A DNA stretch of 62,802 bases from an uncultured Pelagibacteraceae bacterium. GTDB lineage: Bacteria; Pseudomonadota; Alphaproteobacteria; Pelagibacterales; Pelagibacteraceae. The notes below the pieces were generated by a model that worked only from the letters and a program-made list of their open reading frames with translations, was not told the origin of the DNA and did not search any database. Both the position numbers and the translations under genes were made by a program. The stretch spans positions 1-62,802 of the forward strand of contig CACFAF010000005.1 in the NCBI GenBank assembly GCA_902564245.1, in the 5' to 3' direction. Positions 38,206 through 51,132 of this stretch are shown here, in pieces; the stretch's first letter is position 1, and each line of letters begins with the position of its first letter.

Positions 38206-38595
38206 ATGAATAAAATTCTAGTCGAAGTATCAGTTGGAGAACTTCTAGACAAAATTTCGATTTTAGAAATAAAAAAGGGAAAGATTAAAGATCCTGAAAA
38301 ACTTAAGTTTATATCAAATGAACATTCAATTCTAAAAGACCAATTAGAAAAAATTGTTAAATCTAATGATAAACTTGAAGAGTTATTTCAAAAATTAAAA
38401 GAGATTAATTCAAAGCTTTGGGTAATCGAAGATGACAAAAGAAATTGTGAAAAAAATAAAGATTTTGGTGATAAATTTATAAAATTATCTAGAGATGTTC
38501 ATTTTTTAAATGACGATCGTGCAAAAATTAAATTAGAAATCAACAATCTTTCTGGCTCAACTATAAAAGAGATTAAAGAATATACTAGTTATTAA
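38206..38595 (+). CDS. DUF6165-like coiled-coil protein
   Basis: A 129-residue, highly charged, helical protein with no signal peptide or membrane segment. The opening VEVSVGELLDKISILEIKKGKI resembles small uncharacterised proteins (DUF6165 as I recall it) often found near LPS and glycosyltransferase genes. Heptad-like leucine spacing suggests coiled coil for most of the length. It diverges from the GT9 gene with 32 bases between starts, and its end overlaps the convergent PhyH gene by 11 bases. No function is assigned. Confidence 0.65.
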   Translation: MNKILVEVSVGELLDKISILEIKKGKIKDPEKLKFISNEHSILKDQLEKIVKSNDKLEELFQKLKEINSKLWVIEDDKRNCEKNKDFGDKFIKLSRDVHFLNDDRAKIKLEINNLSGSTIKEIKEYTSY

Positions 38596-39376
38596 AAATC
38601 TTAGGGAACCAATCTTCTCTCATTAAGTCACCAGTTTTTAAATTAATTCCATCAAAAGGAGGAGATGTGGGTCCTCCTCTATCAATATATCTAACATCAT
38701 CACCTATAAATCTCATAGAAAATGCTCTTCGAGATTTAGAACTATTATTTCCAGTTGAGCCATGAACAGTTTTAAAATTGAATAGCACAGCATCACCTAA
38801 ATTCAACTCAGGTGTTAAAATATCTTTTTCAAATTTGCTTGATGAAGGTAAATCCATAAAAGAATTTTCATCTTTGTACCAAGGTTGATTATTAGACCAT
38901 TTTGTTGGTCTGATTAATTTTGGCCATTTATGTGAATTTAAAATTAATTTAAGATTATTTTCTTGATCAACATTATCTAACGGTATCCAAAAACTTCCTG
39001 TATCATTTCCATCTACGCAATAATATGGCATATCTTGATGCCAGGGAGTTTCTTTGTGTGTGCCAGGCTCTTTAATAAATATATGTTCATGAAAAATTTG
39101 AGTTGACTTGGAAGAAGTGGCTTCAGCAACTATCTTTGCACCTGGCGAATTAAAAATACAATCTCTAAATTCCTTAATTCTCTCCCAATTACAATAATCT
39201 TCAAAGAACCTACCTTTATTTTTTTCATTTACATTTTCTCTTCCATGTTTACTAGGATTATCTAAAACTTTTTGAAATCCTTTTCTTAAAGGTCCAATCC
39301 ATTCTTTAAAAACCTCTTTTATAATTATTGCTCCAAAGTTTTGGTAATCTTCGATTTGTTTTTTTGAAAGATACAT
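38585..39376 (-). CDS. phytanoyl-CoA dioxygenase (PhyH) family 2OG-Fe(II) oxygenase
   Basis: A 263-residue non-heme iron dioxygenase. The facial triad is H113-x-D115 (PWHQD) and H205 (VHGS), with 2-oxoglutarate-binding arginine probably R216 or R217 in SRRAFSMRF. Family members hydroxylate small molecules such as ectoine, phytanoyl-CoA or phosphonates; the substrate here is unknown. It is the last gene after a polar amino-acid ABC transporter on the same strand (8 bases from the permease gene), so the imported compound may be its substrate. Confidence 0.85.
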   Translation of the reverse strand: MYLSKKQIEDYQNFGAIIIKEVFKEWIGPLRKGFQKVLDNPSKHGRENVNEKNKGRFFEDYCNWERIKEFRDCIFNSPGAKIVAEATSSKSTQIFHEHIFIKEPGTHKETPWHQDMPYYCVDGNDTGSFWIPLDNVDQENNLKLILNSHKWPKLIRPTKWSNNQPWYKDENSFMDLPSSSKFEKDILTPELNLGDAVLFNFKTVHGSTGNNSSKSRRAFSMRFIGDDVRYIDRGGPTSPPFDGINLKTGDLMREDWFPKIFNN

Positions 39377-39384
39377 CTTTAAAA

Positions 39385-40059
39385 TTATTGAAAACTATAT
39401 TTTTTCTCTAAATACTTAATAAAATTATGAATTAAAAATGTCATAAATAAATAAATACCTCCAGCAACAATAAAAACTTCTATTGGTTTAAAGGTTGTTG
39501 AAATTATATATTTTGCAACTCCTGTTAAGTCCAATAAAGTTACTGTGCTAGCTAATGATGTTCCTTTCATCATTAAAATTATTTCATTACCATAAGCAGG
39601 AAGTGATTGTCTGATAGCAATAGGAATTTGAATTTTATAAAAGATAATTCTATTAGATATACCTAAGCTTTTTCCTGCCTCAATAATACCTGGTTTAATT
39701 GTTTGAAAAGCTGATCTTAGTATTTCTGATGTATAGGCACCCGTATTTAAAGTGAATGCTATTATTGCACACCAATAGGGTTCTTTTAAAATTACCCATA
39801 AGAATGTAGTTCTTAAATACTCAATTTGTCCTAAACCAAAATAAATTATAAAAATTTGAACTAATAATGGTGTTCCTCTAAAAACATAAGAATAACCATA
39901 AGCAAATTTATTTATAAAAATATTTTTATTTATTCTTAAAATTGCAAATAAAAGTCCAACAAATAATCCAAAAAATAAAGATGCAGATAAAAGTTTTAAC
40001 GTAATTACAGTTGCACTTAAAAGTTTAGGAAAACTATTGATCATTAAATCAAAATCCAT
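39385..40059 (-). CDS. ABC transporter permease, polar amino acid type (HisM-like)
   Basis: A 224-residue inner-membrane permease with about five helices. The EAA loop that contacts the ATPase reads EAGKSLGISNRIIFYKIQIP. FRGTPLLVQIFIIYFGLG is the conserved N-terminal segment of the HisMQ/GlnP family. ATG at 40059 is preferred; an upstream TTG is also in frame. It overlaps the other permease gene by one base, so both subunits form a heterodimer made from one message. No ATP-binding subunit gene is found next to it. Confidence 0.92.
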   Translation of the reverse strand: MDFDLMINSFPKLLSATVITLKLLSASLFFGLFVGLLFAILRINKNIFINKFAYGYSYVFRGTPLLVQIFIIYFGLGQIEYLRTTFLWVILKEPYWCAIIAFTLNTGAYTSEILRSAFQTIKPGIIEAGKSLGISNRIIFYKIQIPIAIRQSLPAYGNEIILMMKGTSLASTVTLLDLTGVAKYIISTTFKPIEVFIVAGGIYLFMTFLIHNFIKYLEKKYSFQ

Positions 40060-40751
40060 CAATACCCCCTGCTATATTTAACTTCTAATTTGTTAATCAA
40101 CTTCATACTTAAATATGTAAGTAATAAGTATAAAACTGCTGCAAAAGAATAAAAAAATAATGGATCTCTTGTGGATCCTGCAGCTATATAAGACTGTCTC
40201 ATAATTTCAACTAAACCTGTAACTGAAATAAGTGAAGTATCCTTAAGAGTAATTTGCCAAACATTACTTAGATTTGGAATAGCTAGTCTTAGCATTTGAG
40301 GTAAAATTATTTTATAAAATTGTACAAATTTACTAACCCCTAAAACTTTTGCAGCCTCAAACTGTCCTTTATCGATTGATTGGATTGCACCCCTAAAAAC
40401 TTCAGTTGAATAAGCGCCTGAAATAATTCCAATCGCCATTGATCCTGTTATAAATGCATTTATTTCAATGTATTCAAAATAACCAAAAATAGAAGCAACA
40501 TACATAACTGCACCACTCCCTCCAAAAAAGAAAAGATAAATTACTAGAAGTTCAGGCACACCACGAATGACTGTGGTATAAAAATTTCCTATAAGATTAA
40601 GTGATTTATATTTAGATAATTTTAATGGTGTAAATATTAATGCAAAGAAAAAACCAACTAACATGGCTGTAATTGATACAGCTATTGTCATTAAGGTTGC
40701 GTAAAATAACTCATCACCCCAACCAGTTTTACCAAATGCAAGAAGTTCCAT
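40059..40751 (-). CDS. ABC transporter permease, polar amino acid type (HisQ-like)
   Basis: A 230-residue permease with about five membrane helices. The EAA loop is EAAKVLGVSKFVQFYKIILP, and TTVIRGVPELLVIYLFFFGG is the family N-terminal motif. It pairs with the downstream permease. A perfect 12-bp hairpin lies in the 44-base gap to the upstream binding-protein gene, a layout usually giving more binding protein than permease. Best guesses for substrate are basic amino acids or opine-like compounds, by family. Confidence 0.92.
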   Translation of the reverse strand: MELLAFGKTGWGDELFYATLMTIAVSITAMLVGFFFALIFTPLKLSKYKSLNLIGNFYTTVIRGVPELLVIYLFFFGGSGAVMYVASIFGYFEYIEINAFITGSMAIGIISGAYSTEVFRGAIQSIDKGQFEAAKVLGVSKFVQFYKIILPQMLRLAIPNLSNVWQITLKDTSLISVTGLVEIMRQSYIAAGSTRDPLFFYSFAAVLYLLLTYLSMKLINKLEVKYSRGY

Positions 40752-40754
40752 ATA

Positions 40755-40786
40755 GATTGGCGACTATATATTATAGTCGCCAAATC
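40755..40786 (-). promoter_or_regulatory. intercistronic hairpin between binding-protein and permease genes
   Basis: TTGGCGACTATA (40757-40768) and its exact complement (40772-40783) flank a 3-base loop; a further GAT/ATC can pair around a one-base bulge. It sits 10 bases after the binding-protein stop. There is no T-run after it, so it is more likely an mRNA-stabilising or attenuating element than a full terminator. Confidence 0.7.
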
Positions 40787-40795
40787 TGAAATTAA

Positions 40796-41647
40796 TTACA
40801 TAGAAGCGTCAAAACCAAAGTGTTTAATAGCAAGTTTGCTAATAATTCCTTTTTTTCTTGCAGTATTAATAGCTCTATTAAAATCTTTTAAAAGTTTGGC
40901 ATCTCTTTTACCAATTGTATCAGTGCCACCTTTTCTAATTCCAACACCAACACCATTACCAAAAGCTCCGCCTGAAAAAGTAGGTCCCACTAAAACTACA
41001 GGTTTACCAGATTTTTCAGCATAATCAGTAAAAGCAACTGCAGCTGCTAATGCTGCATCACATCTACCTGCTGCTAAATCTAGATTTACTTCGTCTTGTG
41101 TTTTGTATGTTCTAACATCAATTTTACCAACATCACCGGATTCTAAAAAGTTTTGGTGTATAGTTGCAGTCTGAACACAAACTGTTTTTCCTGCAAGAGC
41201 TCCAGTTAAAGTTTTAAGAGCTTTCTTAACATCTCCTCCACCAATAGATAAATTTATTCCTTCTGGTGTGTCTAAACTTTCTAAACCAGATCCTTTCATT
41301 ACAGCTAGAGAAGCAACTTCATCAGCGTAACCTTGAGAAAAATTAATTGTTTTTAATCTTTCGTCAGTAATTGACATTCCAGCCATTATCGCATCGAACT
41401 TTCTCATAAGTAAAGCAGGGATCATTCCATCCCAATCTTGTTCAACTATAGTGCATTCATGTTTCATGATAGTGCATAGTTCTTTAGCTAGTTCAACCTC
41501 AAAACCAATAAGATTACCTGAGGCATCTTTTGAATTCCAAGGAGGATAGGCACCTTCAGTTCCTATCTTTATTTTATCAGCATTTGCATTTCCGATTAAT
41601 AATAAAGAAGTAAAAACTGTTAAAATTGTTTTTTTGAATATATTCAT
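40796..41647 (-). CDS. ABC transporter substrate-binding protein, polar amino acid type
   Basis: A 283-residue periplasmic binding protein with a signal peptide (KKTILTVFTSLLLIGNANA, cleavage near residue 20). IGTEGAYPPWNSKDASGNLIGFE, MSITDERLKTINFS and the DAALAAAVAF region are typical of the lysine/arginine/ornithine/octopine cluster. A disulfide is likely between the Cys pair in ELCTIMKHEC. The start is ATG 41647, five bases after GGAGG; the in-frame ATG at 41659 lies inside that SD. It leads the binding protein-permease-permease-PhyH unit. Confidence 0.92.
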   Translation of the reverse strand: MNIFKKTILTVFTSLLLIGNANADKIKIGTEGAYPPWNSKDASGNLIGFEVELAKELCTIMKHECTIVEQDWDGMIPALLMRKFDAIMAGMSITDERLKTINFSQGYADEVASLAVMKGSGLESLDTPEGINLSIGGGDVKKALKTLTGALAGKTVCVQTATIHQNFLESGDVGKIDVRTYKTQDEVNLDLAAGRCDAALAAAVAFTDYAEKSGKPVVLVGPTFSGGAFGNGVGVGIRKGGTDTIGKRDAKLLKDFNRAINTARKKGIISKLAIKHFGFDASM

Positions 41648-41652
41648 TATTA

Positions 41653-41657
41653 CCTCC
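41653..41657 (-). promoter_or_regulatory. strong Shine-Dalgarno of the binding-protein gene
   Basis: GGAGG, five bases before ATG 41647. It rules out the upstream in-frame ATG at 41659, which overlaps it, and predicts high expression, as expected for a periplasmic binding protein. Confidence 0.8.
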
Positions 41658-41718
41658 ATAAATAAAATATAATTATTTCATAGATTTAATAATTTAAAAA
41701 GTAATTTTTACTATTAAT

Positions 41719-42759
41719 TTAGTGATTTATCGAAGAAGAAAAATTCCAAGAACAATCAAAACTTGGTATATAAACTCTATCTAAGGTAGTATTTCCAAAA
41801 TTTTTGTTAAAAACATCCATCCATTTCTTAACTTGTTGGGGTTTTTTATCTTCACTTCCTACTTGGGCTGTTATTACTCCATTAGGTTTTAATATTCTTA
41901 CTAATGAATCCATATTTTTTGAGGCAAGGTCAATACAAAATTGATCATCGTTAAGATCTACAAATATCTTATCATATTTATCGTCTTCTACTGTTTTAAT
42001 GCTTTCAAATGCATCTCCCCAAATACATTTAACTGAATTTTTTTCAGTAGATTTTTTACTGATGTCTCCCAAATGTTTATTACAAACATTTACCACTTCT
42101 GGGTCCAGTTCGTACCAATCAATAAAGTTAAACCCTTTAGAAATACACTCTCTTGCAACTCCCCCGTCACCTCCTCCAATAATTGCAGCTTTTTCTTTAT
42201 CTTTATTAAGTTTTAAACCTGAGTTTACAAAAGTTGAGCTATACAAATGTTCGTCACTTGTCGCAACTTGTATTTCACCATCTATAAATAATGACTTTCC
42301 AAATTGTTCTAAATCTAAAATTTCAATATGTTGTCCCACTTTAGATTTAAAATCTTCTAACACATCATTTACTATGTAAGATTTTTGTAAACCAGGTGAA
42401 CTATAAATATCGTGGTATAAAGATTTTGTATCTCTATTAAATTCTTTTATAACTATTCTTTTATGCTTAAATTCGGCTTTTATAATATCTATGGCAACTG
42501 AAGGTCTGATCTTTCCACAAGTAAAAAAGTCAAAACTTATTATTCCTTTTTCGGGAAATGTGTGAAAACTAATATGACTTTCTGCTAATAGTGCCAAAAT
42601 AGTAAAACCTTGAGGTTCAAATTTATATTTTGATATATTTAAAATCGTTACATTAGCTACTTCTGCAACTTTGTGAATTACTTTTTCGTAAATAGATGAA
42701 TCATATTCCTTGGTAGTGCCAATTATATCTAAAGTGATGTGCTCCCCAACTTTGATCAT
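41719..42759 (-). CDS. fused S-adenosylmethionine decarboxylase - spermidine synthase (SpeD-SpeE)
   Basis: A 346-residue two-domain protein. Residues 1-115 or so are a prokaryotic AdoMet decarboxylase proenzyme. ESHISFHTFPE (60-70) contains the self-cleavage site, with S61 becoming the pyruvoyl group, H66 and catalytic C81. Residues 130-346 are an aminopropyltransferase: FIDGEIQVATSDE, GGGDGG (195-200), YELDPEVV (216-223) and VDLNDD with the catalytic aspartates. The usual Y-(H/Q)-E-M after the DE motif is replaced by YSST, so the amine acceptor may differ. It ends the operon that includes mtnA and mtnP, which handle its by-product MTA. Confidence 0.9.
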   Translation of the reverse strand: MIKVGEHITLDIIGTTKEYDSSIYEKVIHKVAEVANVTILNISKYKFEPQGFTILALLAESHISFHTFPEKGIISFDFFTCGKIRPSVAIDIIKAEFKHKRIVIKEFNRDTKSLYHDIYSSPGLQKSYIVNDVLEDFKSKVGQHIEILDLEQFGKSLFIDGEIQVATSDEHLYSSTFVNSGLKLNKDKEKAAIIGGGDGGVARECISKGFNFIDWYELDPEVVNVCNKHLGDISKKSTEKNSVKCIWGDAFESIKTVEDDKYDKIFVDLNDDQFCIDLASKNMDSLVRILKPNGVITAQVGSEDKKPQQVKKWMDVFNKNFGNTTLDRVYIPSFDCSWNFSSSINH

Positions 42760-42764
42760 AAAAA

Positions 42765-43430
42765 TTACCCACTTTTATAATTTTTAACCTTATCTAAAAT
42801 TTTTTGCATTTCTGCAAATGTTAGATTCGTAGGTTCCCCAAGTTTTAAAGCAATTATATACTGATGGCAAATATTTTCTAACTCTTGTGCAAGTTCAAAA
42901 GCTTTAGAAAGATTTTCTCCAAATGCAACTTGACCGTGGTTTGACATTAAACAAGCTTTTCTATTTTCTAATGCTTTAATAATATTCATAGATAATTCAT
43001 GAGTACCAAAAGTAGCGTATTTAGAACATTTTATGTCCTCTCCTCCTATAAGTGCCACCATATAATGAAAAGGAGGTATTGATTTACCATGAGTTGAAAC
43101 AGCAGTAGCATGTGGTGAATGTGCATGAACTATAGCTTTTGCTTCCCATTTGTTTCTATAAATATCTTGGTGGAATCTCCATTCAGACGATGGATTCTTA
43201 CCTGAATTAAACCATGAGAGAAAATCTTTTTCTTCTTTTAAAGACAAAAAAACAATATCTTCAGGTTGTAATGATTCGTATTTTTTACCTGAAGGTGTAA
43301 TAAAAAAACCCTCTATACCATTTTCTATTCCTCTTACTGATATATTTCCAGATCTTAAGGGAGATAAATTGGTACTATTTAATTTAATAGAATACTCAAT
43401 TACCTCTTTTCTTTCTTTCAAGTTTTCCAC
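42765..43430 (-). CDS. class II aldolase/adducin family protein, candidate methylthioribulose-1-phosphate aldolase or MtnB-type dehydratase
   Basis: A 221-residue zinc-dependent class II aldolase-fold protein. SGNISVR (27-33) binds phosphate, E83 is the likely acid/base, and H102 and H104 (VHAHSPH) with H165 (SNHGQ) are the metal ligands. MtnB dehydratases and fuculose-phosphate-type aldolases share this layout. The operon supplies methylthioribulose-1-phosphate (mtnP, mtnA) but contains no mtnC, mtnD or mtnE. Aldol cleavage to DHAP and 2-(methylthio)acetaldehyde is therefore at least as likely as dehydration. It lies 5 bases before the SpeD-SpeE gene. Confidence 0.8.
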   Translation of the reverse strand: MENLKERKEVIEYSIKLNSTNLSPLRSGNISVRGIENGIEGFFITPSGKKYESLQPEDIVFLSLKEEKDFLSWFNSGKNPSSEWRFHQDIYRNKWEAKAIVHAHSPHATAVSTHGKSIPPFHYMVALIGGEDIKCSKYATFGTHELSMNIIKALENRKACLMSNHGQVAFGENLSKAFELAQELENICHQYIIALKLGEPTNLTFAEMQKILDKVKNYKSG

Positions 43431-43435
43431 TTAAT

Positions 43436-43633
43436 TTAATTAGCTCTCTTTTTTCTAATTTGTTCTTCACAAAATTTTCTAGCTTCATCTAAATCTGTAA
43501 TCTTAGATTCTGATAATTTTTGACTACCAGCAATACAAGCATCTACGGCTCTTTTAAAATTATGGTCGCTAAAATTTAATATTACAATCATTCCTAAGAC
43601 TATAAATACAAATATTAATATATTTTTTACCAC
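43436..43633 (-). CDS. small single-span membrane protein
   Basis: A 65-residue protein with an N-terminal hydrophobic helix (about residues 4-20, ILIFVFIVLGMIVIL). A polar tail carries two cysteines (CIAGS and FCEEQ) about 19 residues apart and ends KKRAN. I do not recognise the family. It is supported as a gene by its one-base overlap with the upstream hydrolase gene (shared TAATG-type junction) and by lying 5 bases before the aldolase gene in the same operon. Confidence 0.6.
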   Translation of the reverse strand: MVKNILIFVFIVLGMIVILNFSDHNFKRAVDACIAGSQKLSESKITDLDEARKFCEEQIRKKRAN

Positions 43634-44769
43634 TATAATAAATTTTCTTTAAAGAAATTAATAAATTGAGGCATATATACATCCATATTTTTTCCACCAA
43701 TTGTAACACCTTTAGAGAGACATTTTTCTTTTTTCATAGCCTTAAAAATTTTTTTGAAAGTTTTTCTTGGTTCATTTTGAGCAGCTTCATACCAAGCTTT
43801 TTCGCTTGGATAAATTTTATATTTATCTATCAGCCATTCTTTCCATATTGGGTTAGTAACCCTACCGTCATTATCAACAAATACATCTGGGCAATCGTGA
43901 AGTGTCATTGCATTTTTTACTCTCCAAGGTTTTTTTCCATAATACCATCCATGGTGCCAACCTTCTTTTATATCAACTTTTACTTTACCTGGAGGTGCTT
44001 TTATTCTTTCAGCATGCTCCTTACAAAACTTGGCCAAAGTATAATCATCTGCACCACCGTGCACTACAAGCATTGTTGTGTTAGATGTTAATTCAGGTTC
44101 TGCAAAAAAACCAGCCATCCTACATTCTGCTGCTTCTGGAAGAATTGCATCAAAACCCTTTGTGCCTTCAAGGAATTTAGATGTGAGCTTAACATCAGCC
44201 AAGTAAAAAGAATTAGTTCCGCCTCTTGAGTGACCAGTGGTACCAAATTTCCCATTTGATCTTGGATGAGATTGTAAAAGTTTTAAAGCCATAAGAGCAT
44301 CAATTGCTCCATTGATTAGTGGCACCCTCGATTGATCTCTCCAAGTTTCTCTTGCACCTCTTGGACAAAAATTATCTATATACATTACACCAATGCCTGC
44401 TTTCAAAAGATTTTGTGTAGAATGATAAACAAAATCATCCCAAACATAATCCCCAGGTCCCCCACTGCTGTGAGTACGTATTACAATAGGAACTTTATCC
44501 GATCCTTCTGGCAATTGAAGGTATCCTGTTATTTCAATAGGATTATTTAAATGACCATCTATTAAAACTGTTCTTTGATCAAATCCTGTATAAGAGTTAA
44601 ATTTGATTATTTCGCCACCTTTATAATTTTTTAATTTTGAAATACCTTTTAACATCGAACGTTTTTTTGTACAGTTTGCCTTACTATCAAAATTAATATT
44701 TTTTGTAGAATGTGCATAAACATTTGTTGTAAAAATTAATGTGATAAGTAATAAAAATATTTTTTTCAT
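43633..44769 (-). CDS. secreted alpha/beta hydrolase (dienelactone hydrolase-like)
   Basis: A 378-residue protein with a signal peptide (MKKIFLLLITLIFTTNVYA, cleavage near residue 19). The nucleophile elbow GHSRGG gives S181. The other triad members are probably D241 or D242 (HGGADDYT) and H272 or H273 (GWHHGWY). IRTHSSGGPGD before the elbow may form the oxyanion region. It resembles dienelactone-hydrolase/prolyl-oligopeptidase-type esterases; the substrate is unknown. Several cysteines fit a periplasmic location. It overlaps mtnA by four bases, putting an exported hydrolase inside a cytosolic salvage operon. Confidence 0.78.
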   Translation of the reverse strand: MKKIFLLLITLIFTTNVYAHSTKNINFDSKANCTKKRSMLKGISKLKNYKGGEIIKFNSYTGFDQRTVLIDGHLNNPIEITGYLQLPEGSDKVPIVIRTHSSGGPGDYVWDDFVYHSTQNLLKAGIGVMYIDNFCPRGARETWRDQSRVPLINGAIDALMALKLLQSHPRSNGKFGTTGHSRGGTNSFYLADVKLTSKFLEGTKGFDAILPEAAECRMAGFFAEPELTSNTTMLVVHGGADDYTLAKFCKEHAERIKAPPGKVKVDIKEGWHHGWYYGKKPWRVKNAMTLHDCPDVFVDNDGRVTNPIWKEWLIDKYKIYPSEKAWYEAAQNEPRKTFKKIFKAMKKEKCLSKGVTIGGKNMDVYMPQFINFFKENLL

Positions 44770-45842
44770 TTAAATAATCCTTTCAATCCTTTTTCTGACG
44801 CTTCACAAACACCTTTTTCTGTAATTAAACTAGTTATATATTTAGCAGGTGTAATATCAAAAGCTAGGTTCATTACTTTACTTTTTTGTGGATAAATTAA
44901 TATCTTTTTTAATTTTTTATCTTTATCAAGACCTTCTAGGTGAGTTAATTCTTCTGAATTTCTTTCTTCAATAGGAATATCTTTAAAATCTTTTATATCC
45001 CAATCAATTGTTGAGCTTGGTAATGCCACATAAAAAGGTACATTATTATCATAAGCTGCTAGAGCTTTTAAGTACGTTCCAATTTTGTTGCAAACATCTC
45101 CAGTTGATAAAGTTCTATCTGTTCCAACAATACACATATCTACCTCTCCTTTTTGCATTAATATTCCACCAGTATTATCTGCAATAATTGTATTAGGAAC
45201 ATCTTCTTCATTTAATTCATATGAAGTTAAATTAGCTCCTTGATTTCTTGGTCTTGTTTCGTCAACCCAAACATGTACTGGAATACCTTTTTTATGTGCA
45301 TGATAAATTGGAGAAGTTGCTGTGCCCCAATTTATAGTTGCTAACCATCCAGCATTACAATGAGTTAAAATATTTACTGTCTCTTTTTTTTTGTTATAAA
45401 TTTTTTCAATTATTTTAAGACCATTTAATCCAATATTTTTACAAAACTTAACATCTTCTTCACAAATTGTTTTTGCTTCATCTAAAGCTACCTTTAATAA
45501 TTCATTATTATTAACATCTGATAATTTTTTCATCATTCGATCAACTGCCCACTTTAGATTAATTGCTGTTGGTCTAGATTTTATTAGATCTTCTGAACTT
45601 TTTTTAATAAAATTAACATCATTTTTTTCCATAATAGCTAGAACAATACCGTAAGCAGCTGTTCCTCCTATTAATGGAGCTCCCCTTACCTCCATAACTT
45701 TTATGGCATTTATTGCGTCTTTTACTGTTTTAAGATCTTTAATTATAAATTGATGAGGTAGTTTTGTTTGATCAATAATTTTCACAGCTTGGTTTTTTTC
45801 ATCAAACCAAATTGTTCTATATTCTTTTCCTTCTATTTTCAT
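44766..45842 (-). CDS. mtnA: S-methyl-5-thioribose-1-phosphate isomerase
   Basis: A 358-residue enzyme converting methylthioribose-1-phosphate to methylthioribulose-1-phosphate. RGAPLIGG (53-60), catalytic C162 in THCNAGWLAT and D242 in IVGTDR are the family signatures; VDETRPRNQGANLTSYEL distinguishes MtnA from eIF2B-like relatives. The full length is normal. It overlaps the hydrolase gene by four bases and follows the glycosidase gene by four. With mtnP in the same operon it forms the first two steps of MTA recycling. Confidence 0.95.
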   Translation of the reverse strand: MKIEGKEYRTIWFDEKNQAVKIIDQTKLPHQFIIKDLKTVKDAINAIKVMEVRGAPLIGGTAAYGIVLAIMEKNDVNFIKKSSEDLIKSRPTAINLKWAVDRMMKKLSDVNNNELLKVALDEAKTICEEDVKFCKNIGLNGLKIIEKIYNKKKETVNILTHCNAGWLATINWGTATSPIYHAHKKGIPVHVWVDETRPRNQGANLTSYELNEEDVPNTIIADNTGGILMQKGEVDMCIVGTDRTLSTGDVCNKIGTYLKALAAYDNNVPFYVALPSSTIDWDIKDFKDIPIEERNSEELTHLEGLDKDKKLKKILIYPQKSKVMNLAFDITPAKYITSLITEKGVCEASEKGLKGLFK

Positions 45843-45846
45843 TTAT

Positions 45847-46857
45847 TTAAAAATCAATTATCTTAGTAGAACCATCTTTCAAGATAAATTCTGCTTTTTT
45901 TTTTGAAATGAGCTTAACAGATTTAAATCTATCTACCTCTTGAATAAAATTGTTAAGTTTTTTTCTACTGCTTTTACTCATTTTCATACCTGGAGCATTA
46001 ACACCAACATCAATAATCACTTCCGCGCCACTTACAAATGCATTTATATATGATGGGATTACTTTACACTTACCTGTCATTGCTTCAGTTACCCAAATCG
46101 GTTTATTAATATTCAACGATTGCAATAATTCAGAAAATTCACCTACCCAGAAATCTTTATCACATTTACCATCAGGTGGTGTGATATGATGCATATTTGC
46201 TATATCAAAATTATCTTTAATTTTTGGAAGAGCAGATTTCCAAAACTTTTTACTTTCAGGAAACATTCCAGCTGCACCAGCCATAATAATAACTGCATCT
46301 TTTTGCTTCAATTTAATTAGTTCTGATGAAAAATTAAAAATTTCTACAAAATCATCCTCTGTTCCTTTAAAAAACATTTTAAATTCTGGTTCGTTCATTA
46401 TTTCCCAATAGATAATTGGTTTAGTTAAACCTGGCATATCATTAGATCCATCGCCATCATATCTATCAACTAAAGCAGATAAAAAAAGTTTATAGTTTTC
46501 CATAGAACAAGGTTTGCTTAAATATTTTGCAAAATGTTTACCAAAAGGACTTCTTCCCTTTTTTCTTTTACATGATTTTTGTTCCCAATTAGAATATGGC
46601 CATATTGTTGCGATTGTATTTTGATTATGGTTCTGAGCATAAGTTACATATTGATCAGCTTTATCCCAAGAAAAAACTCCTTTTTCTTTTTCAATATTAT
46701 TCCAAACGAAAGGTCCAGGATGCGGTCTCACCCATTGATTATCTTTACCTCTCATTCTATCATCTCTTAATTCAGTCAAATCACCAAAACGGGATCCAGC
46801 GTTTACATTAGAAAATAAGAAAAAAAAGATTAAAGATGTATAAAATATTTTTTTCAT
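45847..46857 (-). CDS. secreted clan GH-A glycoside hydrolase (cellulase-like)
   Basis: A 336-residue protein with a signal peptide (cleavage after VNA near residue 20) and a TIM-barrel glycosidase pattern. The acid/base is E156 in YWEIMNEPEF, and the nucleophile is probably E258 in KPIWVTEAM, the spacing of GH5/GH39-like enzymes. RPHPGPFVWNNIE and DKADQYVTYAQ are early barrel motifs. The glycan substrate is unknown. It overlaps mtnP by four bases and precedes mtnA by four, so it is part of the MTA-salvage operon despite being exported. Confidence 0.75.
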   Translation of the reverse strand: MKKIFYTSLIFFFLFSNVNAGSRFGDLTELRDDRMRGKDNQWVRPHPGPFVWNNIEKEKGVFSWDKADQYVTYAQNHNQNTIATIWPYSNWEQKSCKRKKGRSPFGKHFAKYLSKPCSMENYKLFLSALVDRYDGDGSNDMPGLTKPIIYWEIMNEPEFKMFFKGTEDDFVEIFNFSSELIKLKQKDAVIIMAGAAGMFPESKKFWKSALPKIKDNFDIANMHHITPPDGKCDKDFWVGEFSELLQSLNINKPIWVTEAMTGKCKVIPSYINAFVSGAEVIIDVGVNAPGMKMSKSSRKKLNNFIQEVDRFKSVKLISKKKAEFILKDGSTKIIDF

Positions 46858-47723
46858 TTATTAAGCACTCTACCAGCTACTGTATTAAGTTTTTGAATTG
46901 TTTTCTTTGTTCTTTTCTCGGGTGCTGTTATTATTGCTACATCTAAACAATTGTTCGTTGGATCTTTTGGATCAATATATTTTTCAAAATTATCTATAAG
47001 ATTTTTAATCATATTTTTTGCTTTGGCAGCATTTCCTAAAAGAACTTTTATAACTTGTTGAACATCAACATTTTCATGGTCAGGGTGCCAACAATCATAA
47101 TCTGTGACCATTGAAACTGAAGCATATCTGATTTCAGCTTCTCTTGACAATTTTGCTTCTGGCATATTTGTCATGCCAATTACATCAGCTTTCCATGATC
47201 TATATAAATTAGACTCTGCTAATGTTGAAAATTGTGGCCCTTCCATAACAACATAAGTACCTCCTCTTTGATATGGAATGCTTTCTTTTTTAATGGCTTC
47301 CTCACATGCATTCATTAACCCATTGGATGTTGGATGAGCCATAGAAACATGGGCAACTATTTCATCATCAAAAAATGTTTTATTTCTAGCAAAAGTTCTA
47401 TCTATAAATTGATCAACTATTACAAATTTTCCTGGTGGTAAATCTTCTTTTAAAGAACCGACTGCAGAAACAGATACAATATCTGTTACTCCAAGTTGCT
47501 TTAGGGCATCTATGTTAGCTTTAAAATTTATATTTGAAGGATTAATAAAATGACCTCTTCCATGTCTTGGTAAAAAATATACTTCTTTATCTTTGTAATT
47601 AGTTTTTAGTATTTTGTCAGAAGGTTTTCCCCAAGGCGTATTTAGATCTAATAATTCTCTTTCTTTGAATTCTTCAACATCATACAGGCCACTTCCTCCA
47701 ATAATAGCTAATTTATTTGTCAT
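46854..47723 (-). CDS. mtnP: S-methyl-5'-thioadenosine phosphorylase
   Basis: A 289-residue purine nucleoside phosphorylase-fold enzyme. It cleaves methylthioadenosine with phosphate to adenine and methylthioribose-1-phosphate. GGSGLYD opens the protein; PRHGRGH binds phosphate; VSVSAVGSL and MTNMPEAKLSREAEI form the purine and ribose pockets of the MTAP subgroup. It is the first gene of a seven-gene minus-strand operon ending with the SpeD-SpeE fusion. It diverges from apt, which would salvage the adenine released, with 36 bases between starts. Confidence 0.95.
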   Translation of the reverse strand: MTNKLAIIGGSGLYDVEEFKERELLDLNTPWGKPSDKILKTNYKDKEVYFLPRHGRGHFINPSNINFKANIDALKQLGVTDIVSVSAVGSLKEDLPPGKFVIVDQFIDRTFARNKTFFDDEIVAHVSMAHPTSNGLMNACEEAIKKESIPYQRGGTYVVMEGPQFSTLAESNLYRSWKADVIGMTNMPEAKLSREAEIRYASVSMVTDYDCWHPDHENVDVQQVIKVLLGNAAKAKNMIKNLIDNFEKYIDPKDPTNNCLDVAIITAPEKRTKKTIQKLNTVAGRVLNK

Positions 47724-47759: not shown

Positions 47760-48287
47760 ATGGATTTAAAAGAATATATAAGATCAATTCCTGATTACCC
47801 TAAGAAGGGAATTCTTTTTAGGGATATTACAACCTTAATAAAAAATGAAAAAGCTTTTGCTTTTTGCATTGATCAAATAGTTGAAAAATCTAAGCTCTTT
47901 AAATTTAATAAAATTGCAGCTGTAGAGTCTAGAGGTTTTGTATTTGCTTCTGCAATTTCATATATTTTGAAAAAACCTTTTATATTGCTTAGAAAAAAAA
48001 ATAAATTACCTGCTGAAACTCATTCTGTTGATTTTCAACTAGAATATGGAACTGCAACAATTGAGGTTCACAAAGACTCATTTAGTAAAGGAGATGAAGT
48101 TTTAATAATTGACGACTTAATAGCTACAGGTGGAACTGCAGAAGCAGCTGCAAAGCTTATAGAAATATCTAATGGTAAGGTTGCTGGATTTATTTTTGTA
48201 ATAAATCTTTTTGATCTAGGGGGTGATGAAATTTTGAAAAAAAAAGGTTATTCATCTGAATCATTAATGAACTTCCCAGGTCACTGA
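47760..48287 (+). CDS. apt: adenine phosphoribosyltransferase
   Basis: A 175-residue type I PRTase making AMP from adenine and PRPP. The PRPP-binding signature is VLIIDDLIATGGTAEAA; IPDYPKKGILFRDITTLI and VESRGFVFASAI are Apt-specific. Its placement opposite mtnP makes sense: MtnP releases adenine that Apt recycles. The last 7 bases overlap the convergent GT2 glycosyltransferase gene, so transcription must end inside coding sequence or run through it. Confidence 0.95.
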   Translation: MDLKEYIRSIPDYPKKGILFRDITTLIKNEKAFAFCIDQIVEKSKLFKFNKIAAVESRGFVFASAISYILKKPFILLRKKNKLPAETHSVDFQLEYGTATIEVHKDSFSKGDEVLIIDDLIATGGTAEAAAKLIEISNGKVAGFIFVINLFDLGGDEILKKKGYSSESLMNFPGH

Positions 48288-49180
48288 AACAAAGAATTAA
48301 CTCTGTAACTTGATTTTTTTCCAAGCATTGAGCTTAACAATCCCAATAATCTACTCAAATAAACTGATTTTTGAAGTTTATTAAATGTGATTGTAAAAAA
48401 AATTACCTTAAAAAAAGATCTGATTATCTTGCCATAGGTTTTTCTGAAAGCAGAAAAATATCCATAATTTTTTTTATGAAAATAAAAAGTAGACCACATC
48501 CAGTGCCAATTACGTAATTTTTCAGTATCTATTCCTAAAACAGGATCTGCTTGAGAAGAACTTTTATTTCCTAAATGGTCAATTATAAGTTCTTTTGAAA
48601 CAAAAACATTTCCTCCTTGATCTTTAATTCTTTTACATAAGTCAAACTCTTCAAAATATAAGAAGAAATTTTCATCAAAAAGTTTTTTATTAGGAAATTT
48701 ATTTAAATCAATTATCATTGAACATCCAATTACCCAATCAACTTTTTGTAAACCATTTTGATCAACTGCATTTATTGGATTTATATTTTCTTCAAAATAA
48801 CCTGAAGATTGGAAGTTTTTTTGATTCTTATACGTAGCTCCTATAATTGAAAAATCAATATTTTTTTTAAAAAAAGTTTCGATATTAGGAAAAAAATTTT
48901 TTTCACAAATAGTATCAGGATTAAGTATTAAGACATAACGAGTATCAACAAACTTTAATCCAAAATTATTTCCACTACCCATGCCAAGATTTTTTCCTGT
49001 ACAATGAATTGAGATATTTGGATATTTTCTTTCAAATTTTTCTTTTAAATTAAATTCTGAAGAATTTTCAATTATCTTGATCTTGATATTGTTTTCAATG
49101 GAATTAATACAATCAGTTAATATTTTTTCATCTGTTCTATAAGTTACTATAATTATTGTCAAATCTGATAAACTACTCAT
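48281..49180 (-). CDS. glycosyltransferase family 2 protein (rhamnosyltransferase-like)
   Basis: A 299-residue GT-A enzyme. TIIIVTYRTDEKILTDCINSI opens the nucleotide-binding domain; the metal-binding DXD-type motif is in LILNPDTIC, and DWVIGCSMIIDL with FLYFEEFDLCKRI are the acceptor-side motifs common in dTDP-rhamnosyl and related transferases. The C-terminal basic, hydrophobic region may associate with the membrane. It diverges from rmlB with 57 bases between starts, suggesting a shared polysaccharide locus. Donor sugar is unproven. Confidence 0.85.
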   Translation of the reverse strand: MSSLSDLTIIIVTYRTDEKILTDCINSIENNIKIKIIENSSEFNLKEKFERKYPNISIHCTGKNLGMGSGNNFGLKFVDTRYVLILNPDTICEKNFFPNIETFFKKNIDFSIIGATYKNQKNFQSSGYFEENINPINAVDQNGLQKVDWVIGCSMIIDLNKFPNKKLFDENFFLYFEEFDLCKRIKDQGGNVFVSKELIIDHLGNKSSSQADPVLGIDTEKLRNWHWMWSTFYFHKKNYGYFSAFRKTYGKIIRSFFKVIFFTITFNKLQKSVYLSRLLGLLSSMLGKKSSYRVNSLFQ

Positions 49181-49237
49181 AATTTTATTTAAAAGTTAAA
49201 TATATACATTTTTTTTTATTAATGTAAAAAGTTTGTA

Positions 49238-50257
49238 ATGCAGAGAATTATTGTTACAGGTGGATTAGGTTTCATAGGAAGTAATCTTGTGCATTTACTT
49301 ATTAAAAAAAAATATCATCCAATTATTATCGATAAATTTTCATATGCTTCAAATCTTTATAATTTAAAAGGACTTAAAAAAAATAATTATACAGTACATA
49401 AATTTAGCATCGAAAATAAAAAAAAAATTTTAAATCTATTAAACAAATATAAGCCAAAAGCTATCTTTAATTTAGCTGCTGAAACTCATGTAGATAGATC
49501 TATTGAGAGCCCTGATATGTTTATTAAATCAAATATTCTCGGAGTTTTTAATATTTTAGAATGTATTAAAGAATATGTAAAAAAAAATAAAATAAAAATG
49601 GTTCATGTGTCTACGGATGAAGTTTATGGGGATATAAAAAAAAATAAAAAATCATTAGAAAATGACAGGTATTTTCCAAGTTCTCCTTATTCTGCATCTA
49701 AAGCAAGTGCAGATCATTTAATTACTTCATATGTTAGAACTTTCAATTTACCAATAGTAATTTCTAATTGTTGCAATAATTTTGGTCCAAGACAATTTCC
49801 AGAAAAACTAATTCCAAAAACTATATTTAATTTAGTTAACAATAAAGACATACCAATTTATGGAAAAGGTATTAATGAAAGAGAATGGATTTATGTAGAC
49901 GATCATTGTGAAGGTTTAATTAAGATACTTAAAAAAGGAAAAATTGGACAAAGTTATAATATTGGATCAGGCAATGTTGTTAAAAACTTAGATTTAATAA
50001 AGAAGATTATTAAGGTTTATAAGAATAATTTTTCAAAAAATAAACACATTTCAAAAATAAAATTTGTTTTAGACAGACCAGGGCATGATCTACGTTATGC
50101 TTTGAACTCAAATAAAATAAAAAGAAAACTTAAATGGAAACCAAAAAATAAATTAGATATGGGCATCAAAAAAACTATTGATTGGTATATTAAAAACCCA
50201 AATTTCTATAATAAAAAACAACAAAAAAAATTTGATAAAAGAATTGGATTAATTTAA
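49238..50257 (+). CDS. rmlB: dTDP-glucose 4,6-dehydratase
   Basis: A 339-residue extended SDR enzyme. GGLGFIGSNLV is the NAD-binding glycine motif, STDEVYGD contains the catalytic Thr-Asp-Glu, and YSASKAS the Tyr-Lys pair. It produces dTDP-4-keto-6-deoxyglucose, the branch point to rhamnose and other deoxy-sugars. It overlaps rmlA by one base. rmlC and rmlD are not in the window, so the final sugar may not be rhamnose or the genes lie elsewhere. Confidence 0.93.
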   Translation: MQRIIVTGGLGFIGSNLVHLLIKKKYHPIIIDKFSYASNLYNLKGLKKNNYTVHKFSIENKKKILNLLNKYKPKAIFNLAAETHVDRSIESPDMFIKSNILGVFNILECIKEYVKKNKIKMVHVSTDEVYGDIKKNKKSLENDRYFPSSPYSASKASADHLITSYVRTFNLPIVISNCCNNFGPRQFPEKLIPKTIFNLVNNKDIPIYGKGINEREWIYVDDHCEGLIKILKKGKIGQSYNIGSGNVVKNLDLIKKIIKVYKNNFSKNKHISKIKFVLDRPGHDLRYALNSNKIKRKLKWKPKNKLDMGIKKTIDWYIKNPNFYNKKQQKKFDKRIGLI

Positions 50258-51132
50258 TGATTAAAAAAGGTATAATTTTAGCAGGTGGATTAGGAACTAG
50301 GATGAGCCCACTTACTAAAGCGGTTAATAAACAATTGCTTCCAATTTACGACAAGCCACTCATATATTATCCGCTCTCAATTTTAATGTTGGCTAAAATT
50401 AAAGACATTTTAATAATTGTAAACAAAGGTCAACTTAATCAATTCAAAAAATTGATACCAAGCGGAAAAAATTTAGGGATAAAAATATCTTATGCAGAAC
50501 AAAAAAGCCCAAGAGGACTACCTGATGCTTTTTTAGTTGGTGAAAAATTTATAGGTAAAGACAATGTTGCATTAATTCTTGGTGATAATTTTTTTTATGG
50601 CCAAAATTTAACTAAAAAACTCCAAGAATGCTCAAAGCTATCAAGTGGAGCAAAGATTTTATTACACTCTGTATCTAAGCCAGAAGCTTATGGAGTCGCG
50701 AAATTAAACAATAAAAAGAAAATTATCAAAATCATTGAAAAGCCCAAAAAATTTATTTCTGATTATGCTGTAACAGGTCTGTATTTTTTTGATAATCAAG
50801 TAGTTAAAATTGCTAAAACTCTTAAACCTTCAAAAAGAGGAGAAATTGAAATAATTGATTTATTAAATAAATATAAAAAAAGGAATAAACTTTATGCAGA
50901 TTTTATTGGTCGTGGAGGTGCATGGTTAGATACTGGATCAATTGAAGATTTCTATAAAACTACTTCTTTTGTGGCTGCTATTGAGAGTAGACAAGGTTTA
51001 AAAATTGCCTGTATAGAAGAAATTGCTTATCAATATGGCTGGATAACTAAAAAACATTTAATTCAATCCACAAAATTTTATGGAAATTGTGATTATTCTA
51101 AATATTTAAAAAAACTAATTTTTAGAGATTAG
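50257..51132 (+). CDS. rmlA: glucose-1-phosphate thymidylyltransferase
   Basis: A 291-residue nucleotidyltransferase forming dTDP-glucose. GGLGTRMSPLTKAVNKQLLPIYDKP carries the nucleotide-binding signature, LILGDNFFYG the metal-binding Asp and YGVAKL the sugar contact; AWLDTGS is near the C-terminus. Length and the C-terminal extension match RmlA rather than GalU. It pairs with rmlB by a shared TAATG junction. The phosphohexomutase at 27231 could supply glucose-1-phosphate. Confidence 0.95.
   Translation: MIKKGIILAGGLGTRMSPLTKAVNKQLLPIYDKPLIYYPLSILMLAKIKDILIIVNKGQLNQFKKLIPSGKNLGIKISYAEQKSPRGLPDAFLVGEKFIGKDNVALILGDNFFYGQNLTKKLQECSKLSSGAKILLHSVSKPEAYGVAKLNNKKKIIKIIEKPKKFISDYAVTGLYFFDNQVVKIAKTLKPSKRGEIEIIDLLNKYKKRNKLYADFIGRGGAWLDTGSIEDFYKTTSFVAAIESRQGLKIACIEEIAYQYGWITKKHLIQSTKFYGNCDYSKYLKKLIFRD

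Follow-up and report, generated by a model that had tools for sequence, protein, structure and literature searches.

The subject of this study is a gene cluster at positions 41719–47723 of a 62,802-nucleotide stretch of DNA (contig CACFAF010000005.1, below called the window) from an uncultured member of the Pelagibacteraceae. The source genome belongs to Candidatus Pelagibacter and consists of 38 contigs (1.02 Mb, completeness 86.8%), and the nearest named relatives of its SpeD-SpeE protein are Pelagibacter or Pelagibacteraceae records. Seven open reading frames (ORFs) lie on the minus strand with intergenic gaps of at most 5 bases, and an adenine phosphoribosyltransferase gene, apt, diverges from them 36 bases upstream of mtnP; the coordinates agree with the initial annotation on these points (Table 1). 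From mtnP to the SpeD-SpeE gene (speDE) the junctions are, in order, an overlap of 4 bases, a gap of 4, overlaps of 4 and 1, and two gaps of 5. The minus-strand run extends beyond the seven genes, across a 59-base gap, into genes for a binding protein, two permeases and a PhyH-family protein, and ends at 38585. We consider it likely that the core of the locus is a four-gene SAR11 operon, mtnP-mtnA-ald2-speD/E, which makes polyamines and removes the released 5'-methylthioadenosine (MTA) through the dihydroxyacetone phosphate (DHAP) shunt, and whose MTA-consuming part, the sink, can be swapped. The basis for this is gene content, gene order and the complementarity of the encoded functions, all taken from the sequence.

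Table 1. Genes of the cluster and its flanks in the window, from the upstream end of the run; scores are for the models named.
Feature	Position	Strand	Evidence
apt, adenine phosphoribosyltransferase, divergent	47760..48287	+	NF002634 212.8 bits (cut-off 170)
mtnP, S-methyl-5'-thioadenosine phosphorylase, 289 aa, first in run	46854..47723	-	NF006492 442.4 bits (cut-off 437); sole PF01048 match in own genome
Glycosidase-like protein, 336 aa, between mtnP and mtnA	45847..46857	-	GH10 E 0.015; one xylanase E 0.067 (profile)
mtnA, methylthioribose-1-phosphate isomerase, 358 aa	44766..45842	-	TIGR00512 412 bits (cut-off 279)
Alpha/beta-hydrolase-like protein, 378 aa, between mtnA and aldolase	43633..44769	-	Profile of 16 homologues, top alpha/beta-hydrolase match at E 1.5e-6
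Small membrane-protein-like ORF, 65 aa	43436..43633	-	One hydrophobic stretch (by eye)
ald2-type class II aldolase, 221 aa, predicted 5-(methylthio)ribulose-1-phosphate aldolase	42765..43430	-	PF00596 166.6 bits
SpeD-SpeE fusion, 346 aa, S-adenosylmethionine decarboxylase + aminopropyltransferase, predicted MTA source	41719..42759	-	PF02675 + PF01564
ABC substrate-binding protein, lysine/arginine/ornithine type, possible operon continuation	40796..41659	-	TIGR01096 224 bits (below cut-off 256)
ABC permease, top model ArtQ	40059..40751	-	NF008337 178 bits, below cut-off
ABC permease, top model ArtM	39385..40062	-	NF008336 174 bits, below cut-off
PhyH-family dioxygenase, far end of run, unit membership doubtful	38585..39376	-	PF05721 79 bits

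The predicted MTA source is a single chain carrying both an SpeD domain with its processing serine and an SpeE domain. The S-adenosylmethionine (AdoMet) decarboxylase domain scored 99 bits against TIGR03330 (cut-off 75.65), and the SpeE domain 76.6 bits against Pfam Spermine_synth (cut-off 22.9), with the NCBIfam spermidine-synthase models remaining below their cut-offs. The predicted pyruvoyl Ser61 and the acidic residues were invariant in 143/143 rows (of 145, from the three locus sets A, B and C described below; rows are redundant). Architecture and genus are shared with the AdoMet decarboxylase-aminopropyltransferase fusions of Candidatus Pelagibacter HTCC1062 and HTCC7211, which according to the accessible part of PMC11107197 make spermidine, spermine and thermospermine when assayed; those assays concern the two strain proteins. 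The description of the cluster as one for spermidine synthesis is accordingly correct in that spermidine is made, but too narrow in view of the other two products. The neighbouring MTA genes are not discussed in the part of that source available to us. The idea that the SpeD domain might be a neofunctionalised arginine or ornithine decarboxylase, suggested by PMC10407285, was rejected, as the Pelagibacter fusions gave spermidine in an Escherichia coli speD mutant in the accessible portion of PMC11107197.

Three sets of loci were compared. Set A comprised 80 named loci ranked by similarity; some of it is shared with set B, L031 and L141 being the same contig, and the counts are not pooled. Set B comprised 45 loci from evenly drawn genomes of the genus, 46 of 61 of which had a SpeD-SpeE match, the window being the 46th and excluded; it includes, as L184 and L185, a frame-broken copy from genome G059 and a contig-split copy from G048. 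The G059 copy (C9:12353-13391) has three TGA and three TAA codons in its first piece and is either a pseudogene or an assembly error. Set C held 14 loci from other Pelagibacteraceae genera and six from one-contig genomes of the genus, with G302 and the partial G311 excluded. In two loci, L065 and L292, mtnP was missed by ORF picking and found by tblastn, and both were counted as phosphorylase-type.

An MTA sink lay beside SpeD-SpeE in 53/53 apt-bounded loci from 53 genomes (34/34 in set B and 19/19 in set C), so that the proposed neighbourhood of MTA source and MTA sink holds throughout. The remaining loci (11 in set B, one in set C) stop at the end of a contig or fetched stretch, or apt was undetected. 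Three sink forms occur at the same place: mtnP-mtnA-ald2, mtnP-mtnA with an aldolase/dehydrogenase fusion on the opposite strand, and a lone MtnN-like nucleosidase. They account, in this order, for 27, 4 and 3 of the 34 apt-bounded loci in set B, for 16, 1 and 2 of the 19 in set C, and for 57, 6 and 3 of the 66 in set A. The order of mtnP, mtnA, ald2 and speDE, with apt divergent, is kept in the genus and in further genera of the family; that this block recurs across genera, with 4-base overlaps and short gaps, is more than chance. The synteny check suggested for the cluster thus came out in favour of the core order, but not of the glycosidase-like and hydrolase genes, both of which were absent from the operon in all 145 compared loci of sets A, B and C.

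Inserted genes are unevenly spread along the run. The interval between ald2 and speDE is empty (inserts in 0/35, 0/68 and 0/17 loci of sets B, A and C, respectively, and in this order below), as are those from speDE to the binding protein (0/42, 0/78 and 0/7) and from the binding protein to the first permease (0/41, 0/76 and 0/7); between the two permeases a single insert was seen (0/41, 1/76 and 0/7). The binding protein itself is missing in one locus of the genus, L177. Inserts are found between mtnP and mtnA (11/36, 17/64 and 5/16) and between mtnA and the aldolase gene (17/37, 13/70 and 1/18). All those between mtnP and mtnA lie on the operon strand, some with 4-base overlaps, and comprise several alpha/beta-hydrolase-like types (signal-peptide-like starts by eye, weak or no Pfam match), PhyH proteins, proteins that we take to be GFA-like, and a few that were not identified. 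Single genes, alpha/beta-hydrolase-like and other, have entered this junction repeatedly, as in L035, L037, L040, L050, L057 and L166.

In the window these two junctions hold the glycosidase-like and the hydrolase gene. Neither protein had a Pfam or NCBIfam match at 0.001, and weak matches only were obtained. By eye both have a signal-peptide-like start; the former carries NEP and TEA motifs, which we assume to be clan GH-A-like, and the latter a GHSRGG motif. The predicted model of the glycosidase-like protein was too poor to use (mean predicted local distance difference test score, pLDDT, 40.8). Homologues occur in 28/201 genomes of the genus for the glycosidase-like protein and in 31/201 for the hydrolase, own genome included and some of the hydrolase matches being weak. 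Where both places are listed (nine genomes for the glycosidase-like gene, seven for the hydrolase), the copy is on another contig than speDE, except in G004, where the glycosidase-like gene lies ~55 kb away. Because neither gene occurs in a compared operon and copies are found elsewhere, they are unlikely to be parts of the pathway; they look like lineage-specific passengers, inserted, we suggest, at two permissive junctions. The claim that all seven genes form one unit is not upheld, since these two are elsewhere or absent in relatives and the small protein is optional. A functional unit of all seven, in which the glycosidase-like protein and the hydrolase release substrate or carbon, would fit the tight overlaps in the window and the recurrence of alpha/beta-hydrolase-like genes at the mtnP-mtnA junction elsewhere; we regard it as highly improbable given the location of both genes away from the operon in other genomes and the empty mtnP-mtnA interval in 25/36 set B loci.

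The small membrane-like protein differs from the passengers in its distribution. A family of 63–72 amino acids with one hydrophobic stretch, which no Pfam or NCBIfam family names, lies between sink and speDE in L031, L079, L172 and L181, and among the loci listed homologues were found in 15 (at least two being the same contig twice), of both phosphorylase and nucleosidase type. As it recurs beside both sink types, this optional accessory may matter. PhyH homologues are placed between mtnP and mtnA in L032 and three set B loci and after the transporter elsewhere, the loci concerned including L032, L167, L168 and L175, and never in both places among the genus loci listed. Because of its position at one or the other end of the run, PhyH was considered as a methylthio-splitting enzyme, and rejected: it also follows the transporter in the nucleosidase-type locus L163 and is unseen beside many phosphorylase-type loci.

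MtnP and MtnA are present together, each above its curated cut-off, as in a DHAP shunt. The window aldolase scored 164–180 bits against fuculose-phosphate-aldolase models, without reaching the cut-off of any of them, and no more than 60 bits against mtnB models, whose cut-offs are at least 137. Among solved structures it matched E. coli FucA (E 6.6e-44) and 6btd (E 7.1e-36), which we take to be the Bacillus thuringiensis 5-deoxyribulose-1-phosphate aldolase. Residues E83, H102, H104 and H165 were invariant in 113/113 homologues long enough to score (of 120, with redundant rows) and presumably correspond to the catalytic glutamate and the three zinc-binding histidines of FucA. The protein is thus FucA-like and not MtnB-like in comparisons that covered FucA and mtnB models and solved structures. 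The own genome encodes a second class II aldolase (L257:513-1247, contig C20; 244 amino acids, PRK07490 type) with an mtnB score of 42 bits, and several other genomes carry class II aldolases of about this length. The MtnD family had no match in the 61 genus genomes; of the enzymes particular to methionine salvage, the searches covered MtnD and, through PF00596, MtnB, and the positive control for MtnD matched in 5/14 control genomes, two of them above the cut-off.

Classical methionine salvage, in which the aldolase would be MtnB and the sulfur would return to methionine via MtnC, MtnD and MtnE, shares MtnP and MtnA with the DHAP shunt, and MtnB belongs to the same fold family. The absence of MtnD and the low mtnB scores make this route very improbable here. 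With no MtnD and an aldolase unlike MtnB, the locus is predicted to yield DHAP and 2-(methylthio)acetaldehyde rather than methionine, and the terms salvage and self-contained cycle used in the initial annotation are not supported. MtnP-MtnA-Ald2 is best read as a putative DHAP shunt, a one-way exit and not a cycle. DHAP shunts have been described in Rhodopseudomonas palustris, Rhodospirillum rubrum, B. thuringiensis and E. coli (accessible parts of PMC5893883, PMC10986504 and PMC6302742); according to the portion of PMC5893883 at hand, it is not known which enzymes act on 2-(methylthio)ethanol. MtnP, MtnA and a FucA-like class II aldolase are common to the SAR11 locus and to the MtnP/MtnA/Ald2 pathway of R. 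rubrum and R. palustris; variants elsewhere are MtnK-MtnA-Ald2 in E. coli ATCC 25922 and the 5-deoxyribose pathway of B. thuringiensis. The SAR11 run differs from these in including the MTA-producing polyamine synthase, in belonging to a streamlined marine heterotroph, and in having a sink that is interchangeable with a nucleosidase.

In the reaction sequence that we propose, SpeD would decarboxylate AdoMet, and SpeE would transfer the aminopropyl group to putrescine or spermidine with release of MTA. MtnP would cleave MTA by phosphorolysis to adenine, which could be reused via Apt, and methylthioribose-1-phosphate, which MtnA would isomerise; the Ald2-type aldolase would then split the MtnA product into 2-(methylthio)acetaldehyde and DHAP, the latter entering central carbon metabolism. 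The DHAP shunt would in this way recover adenine and three carbons, and 5'-deoxyadenosine is a possible further substrate. In other strains the aldolase can be replaced by the aldolase/dehydrogenase fusion, or all three genes by the MtnN-like nucleosidase. The substrates of Ald2 and of the nucleosidase, and the equivalence of the fusion aldolase, are predictions.

Gene content across genomes bears on whether MTA is the main substrate. Among the 61 genus genomes, speDE was detected in 46, mtnA in 43, ald2 in 36 and the aldolase/dehydrogenase fusion in 7, and both aldolases in none. Wherever either aldolase was found, speDE was found too (43 of 43 genomes), and 41 of the 43 with mtnA have ald2 or the fusion aldolase, the other two being also without detected speDE. 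It could be argued that mtnP-mtnA-ald2 acts chiefly on something other than MTA, for instance on the 5'-deoxyadenosine that radical SAM enzymes release or on further purine nucleosides, and that its place beside speDE does not reflect MTA flux. The match of the aldolase to 6btd fits this suggestion. So do two published cases, each in the available part of its source: B. thuringiensis and E. coli use the DHAP shunt for 5-deoxy sugars and nucleosides (PMC10986504), and a Prochlorococcus MTA phosphorylase has been proposed to recycle deoxynucleosides (PMC11698098). With speDE in every aldolase-bearing genome and the sink staying beside it through the swaps described below, we hold this to be unlikely, and removal of MTA by the shunt to be the preferred explanation.

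The coexistence of sinks was analysed in 21 genomes, chosen by type and not at random. Sixteen have MtnP and MtnA, eight with ald2 and eight with the aldolase/dehydrogenase fusion, the alternatives never occurring together. Five have the MtnN-like gene alone, and searches of them for MtnA, ald2 and the fusion aldolase found none of the three; one of these five has a different class II aldolase of 251 amino acids. Every genome has a single PF01048 gene (21/21; in four it was matched as two pieces of one frame), and this gene shares a contig with speDE in 20/21, G023 being split over contigs. Among the one-contig genus genomes, G213 is phosphorylase-type and G211 nucleosidase-type; these may be strains HTCC7211 and HTCC1062, respectively.

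The MtnN-like protein scored 59.4 bits against Pfam PNP_UDP_1 (cut-off 25.1) and 90 bits against NF004168 (below the cut-off of 129), and its best match among MTA/S-adenosylhomocysteine nucleosidases in the PDB was 4qez (E 4.3e-15). Glutamate and aspartate positions that we take to be catalytic are kept in 8/8 rows, two of which are one contig. In family matches and catalytic positions it is like MtnN/Pfs, but at ~174 amino acids it is shorter than the PDB matches (230–260) and it lies under every NCBIfam cut-off shown; its predicted model was too poor to use (mean pLDDT 31.0). The other alternative resembles the bifunctional aldolase/short-chain dehydrogenase (RhaD-like, PRK08324), the L055 copy scoring 904 bits against NF006192 (cut-off 639). 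In contrast to that protein, the SAR11 fusion aldolase lies on the opposite strand and replaces ald2 beside MtnP/MtnA, and its substrate is a prediction.

A tree of 66 SpeD-SpeE proteins was made by a quick method. It draws on the window, on sets B and C and on two loci of nucleosidase type from set A, with two rows of less than 300 amino acids dropped. On this tree the three sink types need 12 changes (minimum 2; shuffled mean 14.4; as low in 6/200 shuffles), and the starred branches force at least six changes for the aldolase/dehydrogenase-fusion type and at least four for the nucleosidase type. These 12 changes indicate that the sink types are weakly clustered and that several swaps of the cassette have taken place, presumably via recombination between strains. 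The pairing with speDE persisted through the swaps.

We infer co-transcription of the core genes, the basis for an operon being spacing and synteny. Promoter-like sites were fewer in the window than in shuffled sequence (42 versus 54.8) and are uninformative. Terminator-like sites numbered 9 versus 2.7 in shuffles; the six on the minus strand all lie at 38659–41433, inside the transporter and PhyH genes, and none was found on that strand within 41719–47723. The gap between speDE and the transporter folds no better than shuffles (z -0.52), so that this test speaks neither for nor against a break at that point. A known riboswitch was also considered and rejected, the sole Rfam match at the gathering score in the window being one tRNA.

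The neighbourhood of the core varies. According to the available part of PMC9992855, the ornithine decarboxylase homologue of Pelagibacter is in fact an arginine decarboxylase, and its gene clusters with that of an arginase/agmatinase homologue. Putrescine is thus probably derived from arginine, which makes the arginine-type importer 3' of speDE suggestive; against such a link, the importer is missing after speDE in 13/14 loci of other genera. No obvious ATPase gene accompanies the transporter genes at 39385–41659 among the ORFs listed for 38.2–51.1 kb. A nitrilase-family amidase (by eye, ~265 amino acids) follows speDE in L289, L291, L294 and L301, all from other genera and missing the transporter, and in L166 one (by eye) follows the transporter. 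Surface-sugar genes come next after apt in the window, at 48281–51132, and glycosyltransferase-like genes (by eye) are inserted between apt and mtnP in L105 and L303; a variable region for the cell surface may thus lie next to the operon.

Across the class (E 1e-30) SpeD-SpeE was matched in 4/289 genomes, namely the own genome, two of the same family and one 28%-identity match with two stops; within the order (E 1e-40) it was matched in 84/147 genomes, and at least 10 genomes of a second family are among the non-matching genomes listed.

Several observations weigh against a core that pairs polyamine synthesis with the DHAP shunt. SpeD-SpeE has no match (E 1e-40) in at least eight genus genomes that are 92–96% complete, nor in at least two of genus g3 (96–99% complete). 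Two genomes have mtnA and no detected speDE or aldolase, and two have an aldolase and no detected mtnA, all four being 60–79% complete; two of the five nucleosidase-type genomes are only 68–72% complete. The aldolase falls short of all curated NCBIfam cut-offs shown, sequence does not reveal substrate specificity within the FucA family, and the search against methionine salvage had the scope given above. The core transcript and the enzyme activities in the window organism are likewise predicted.

A further proposal concerns the direction of polyamine synthesis. SpeE might run largely in reverse in SAR11, degrading imported spermidine with MTA as co-substrate, in which case the operon would manage MTA supply. 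Against this, an MTA drain placed next to speDE would favour the forward reaction, and hydrolysis by the MtnN-like form is, as we understand the chemistry of its family, irreversible. Reversal of SAR11 SpeE has been proposed by Noell et al. (PMC8437039), in the accessible text of which putrescine rose in HTCC7211 after spermidine, and diaminopropane after norspermidine, with no clear evidence of such a change in HTCC1062. We think a reversed SpeE improbable as the explanation of the locus, and favour forward synthesis with removal of MTA. None of the papers listed connects polyamine synthesis in SAR11 with the mtn genes or with the DHAP shunt, in a search from which subscription journals were mostly absent. 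The main text of PMC8437039, as far as available, is without mtnA and mtnP, but one mention of each is indexed, so a figure or supplement may name them; for PMC5069961 and PMC2217521, both on SAR11, searches of the accessible parts with MTA and polyamine words gave nothing on the locus.

The source-sink pairing is well conserved, and the interchangeable sink is the part most worth following. It is a speculative idea, which we hold to be rather doubtful, that the polyamine synthase is locked to a swappable MTA cassette whose type sets both the released products and the reversibility of polyamine synthesis. If it is true, phosphorylase-type cells, with a reversible MtnP and the DHAP shunt, could let MTA build up and would give off methanethiol or a methylthio-alcohol; in nucleosidase-type cells, where hydrolysis is irreversible, methylthioribose would be released and MTA could not build up; and the aldolase/dehydrogenase fusion would unite aldolase and aldehyde disposal in one protein. 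The proposal would fit the contrast between HTCC7211 and HTCC1062 if G213 and G211 are those strains, as only HTCC7211 could then accumulate MTA, and the swappable sink thereby bears on the open claim of a reversible SAR11 SpeE. We know of no measurement that tells in which form, methylthioribose, methylthioethanol or methanethiol, the sulfur of MTA is lost from the cell. The locus also counsels caution, as tight packing in streamlined genomes is not proof of functional unity when two of seven genes are passenger-like. It would serve as a natural experiment in the replacement of a pathway at a fixed place, and its genotype would predict, strain by strain, the form in which MTA sulfur exits.

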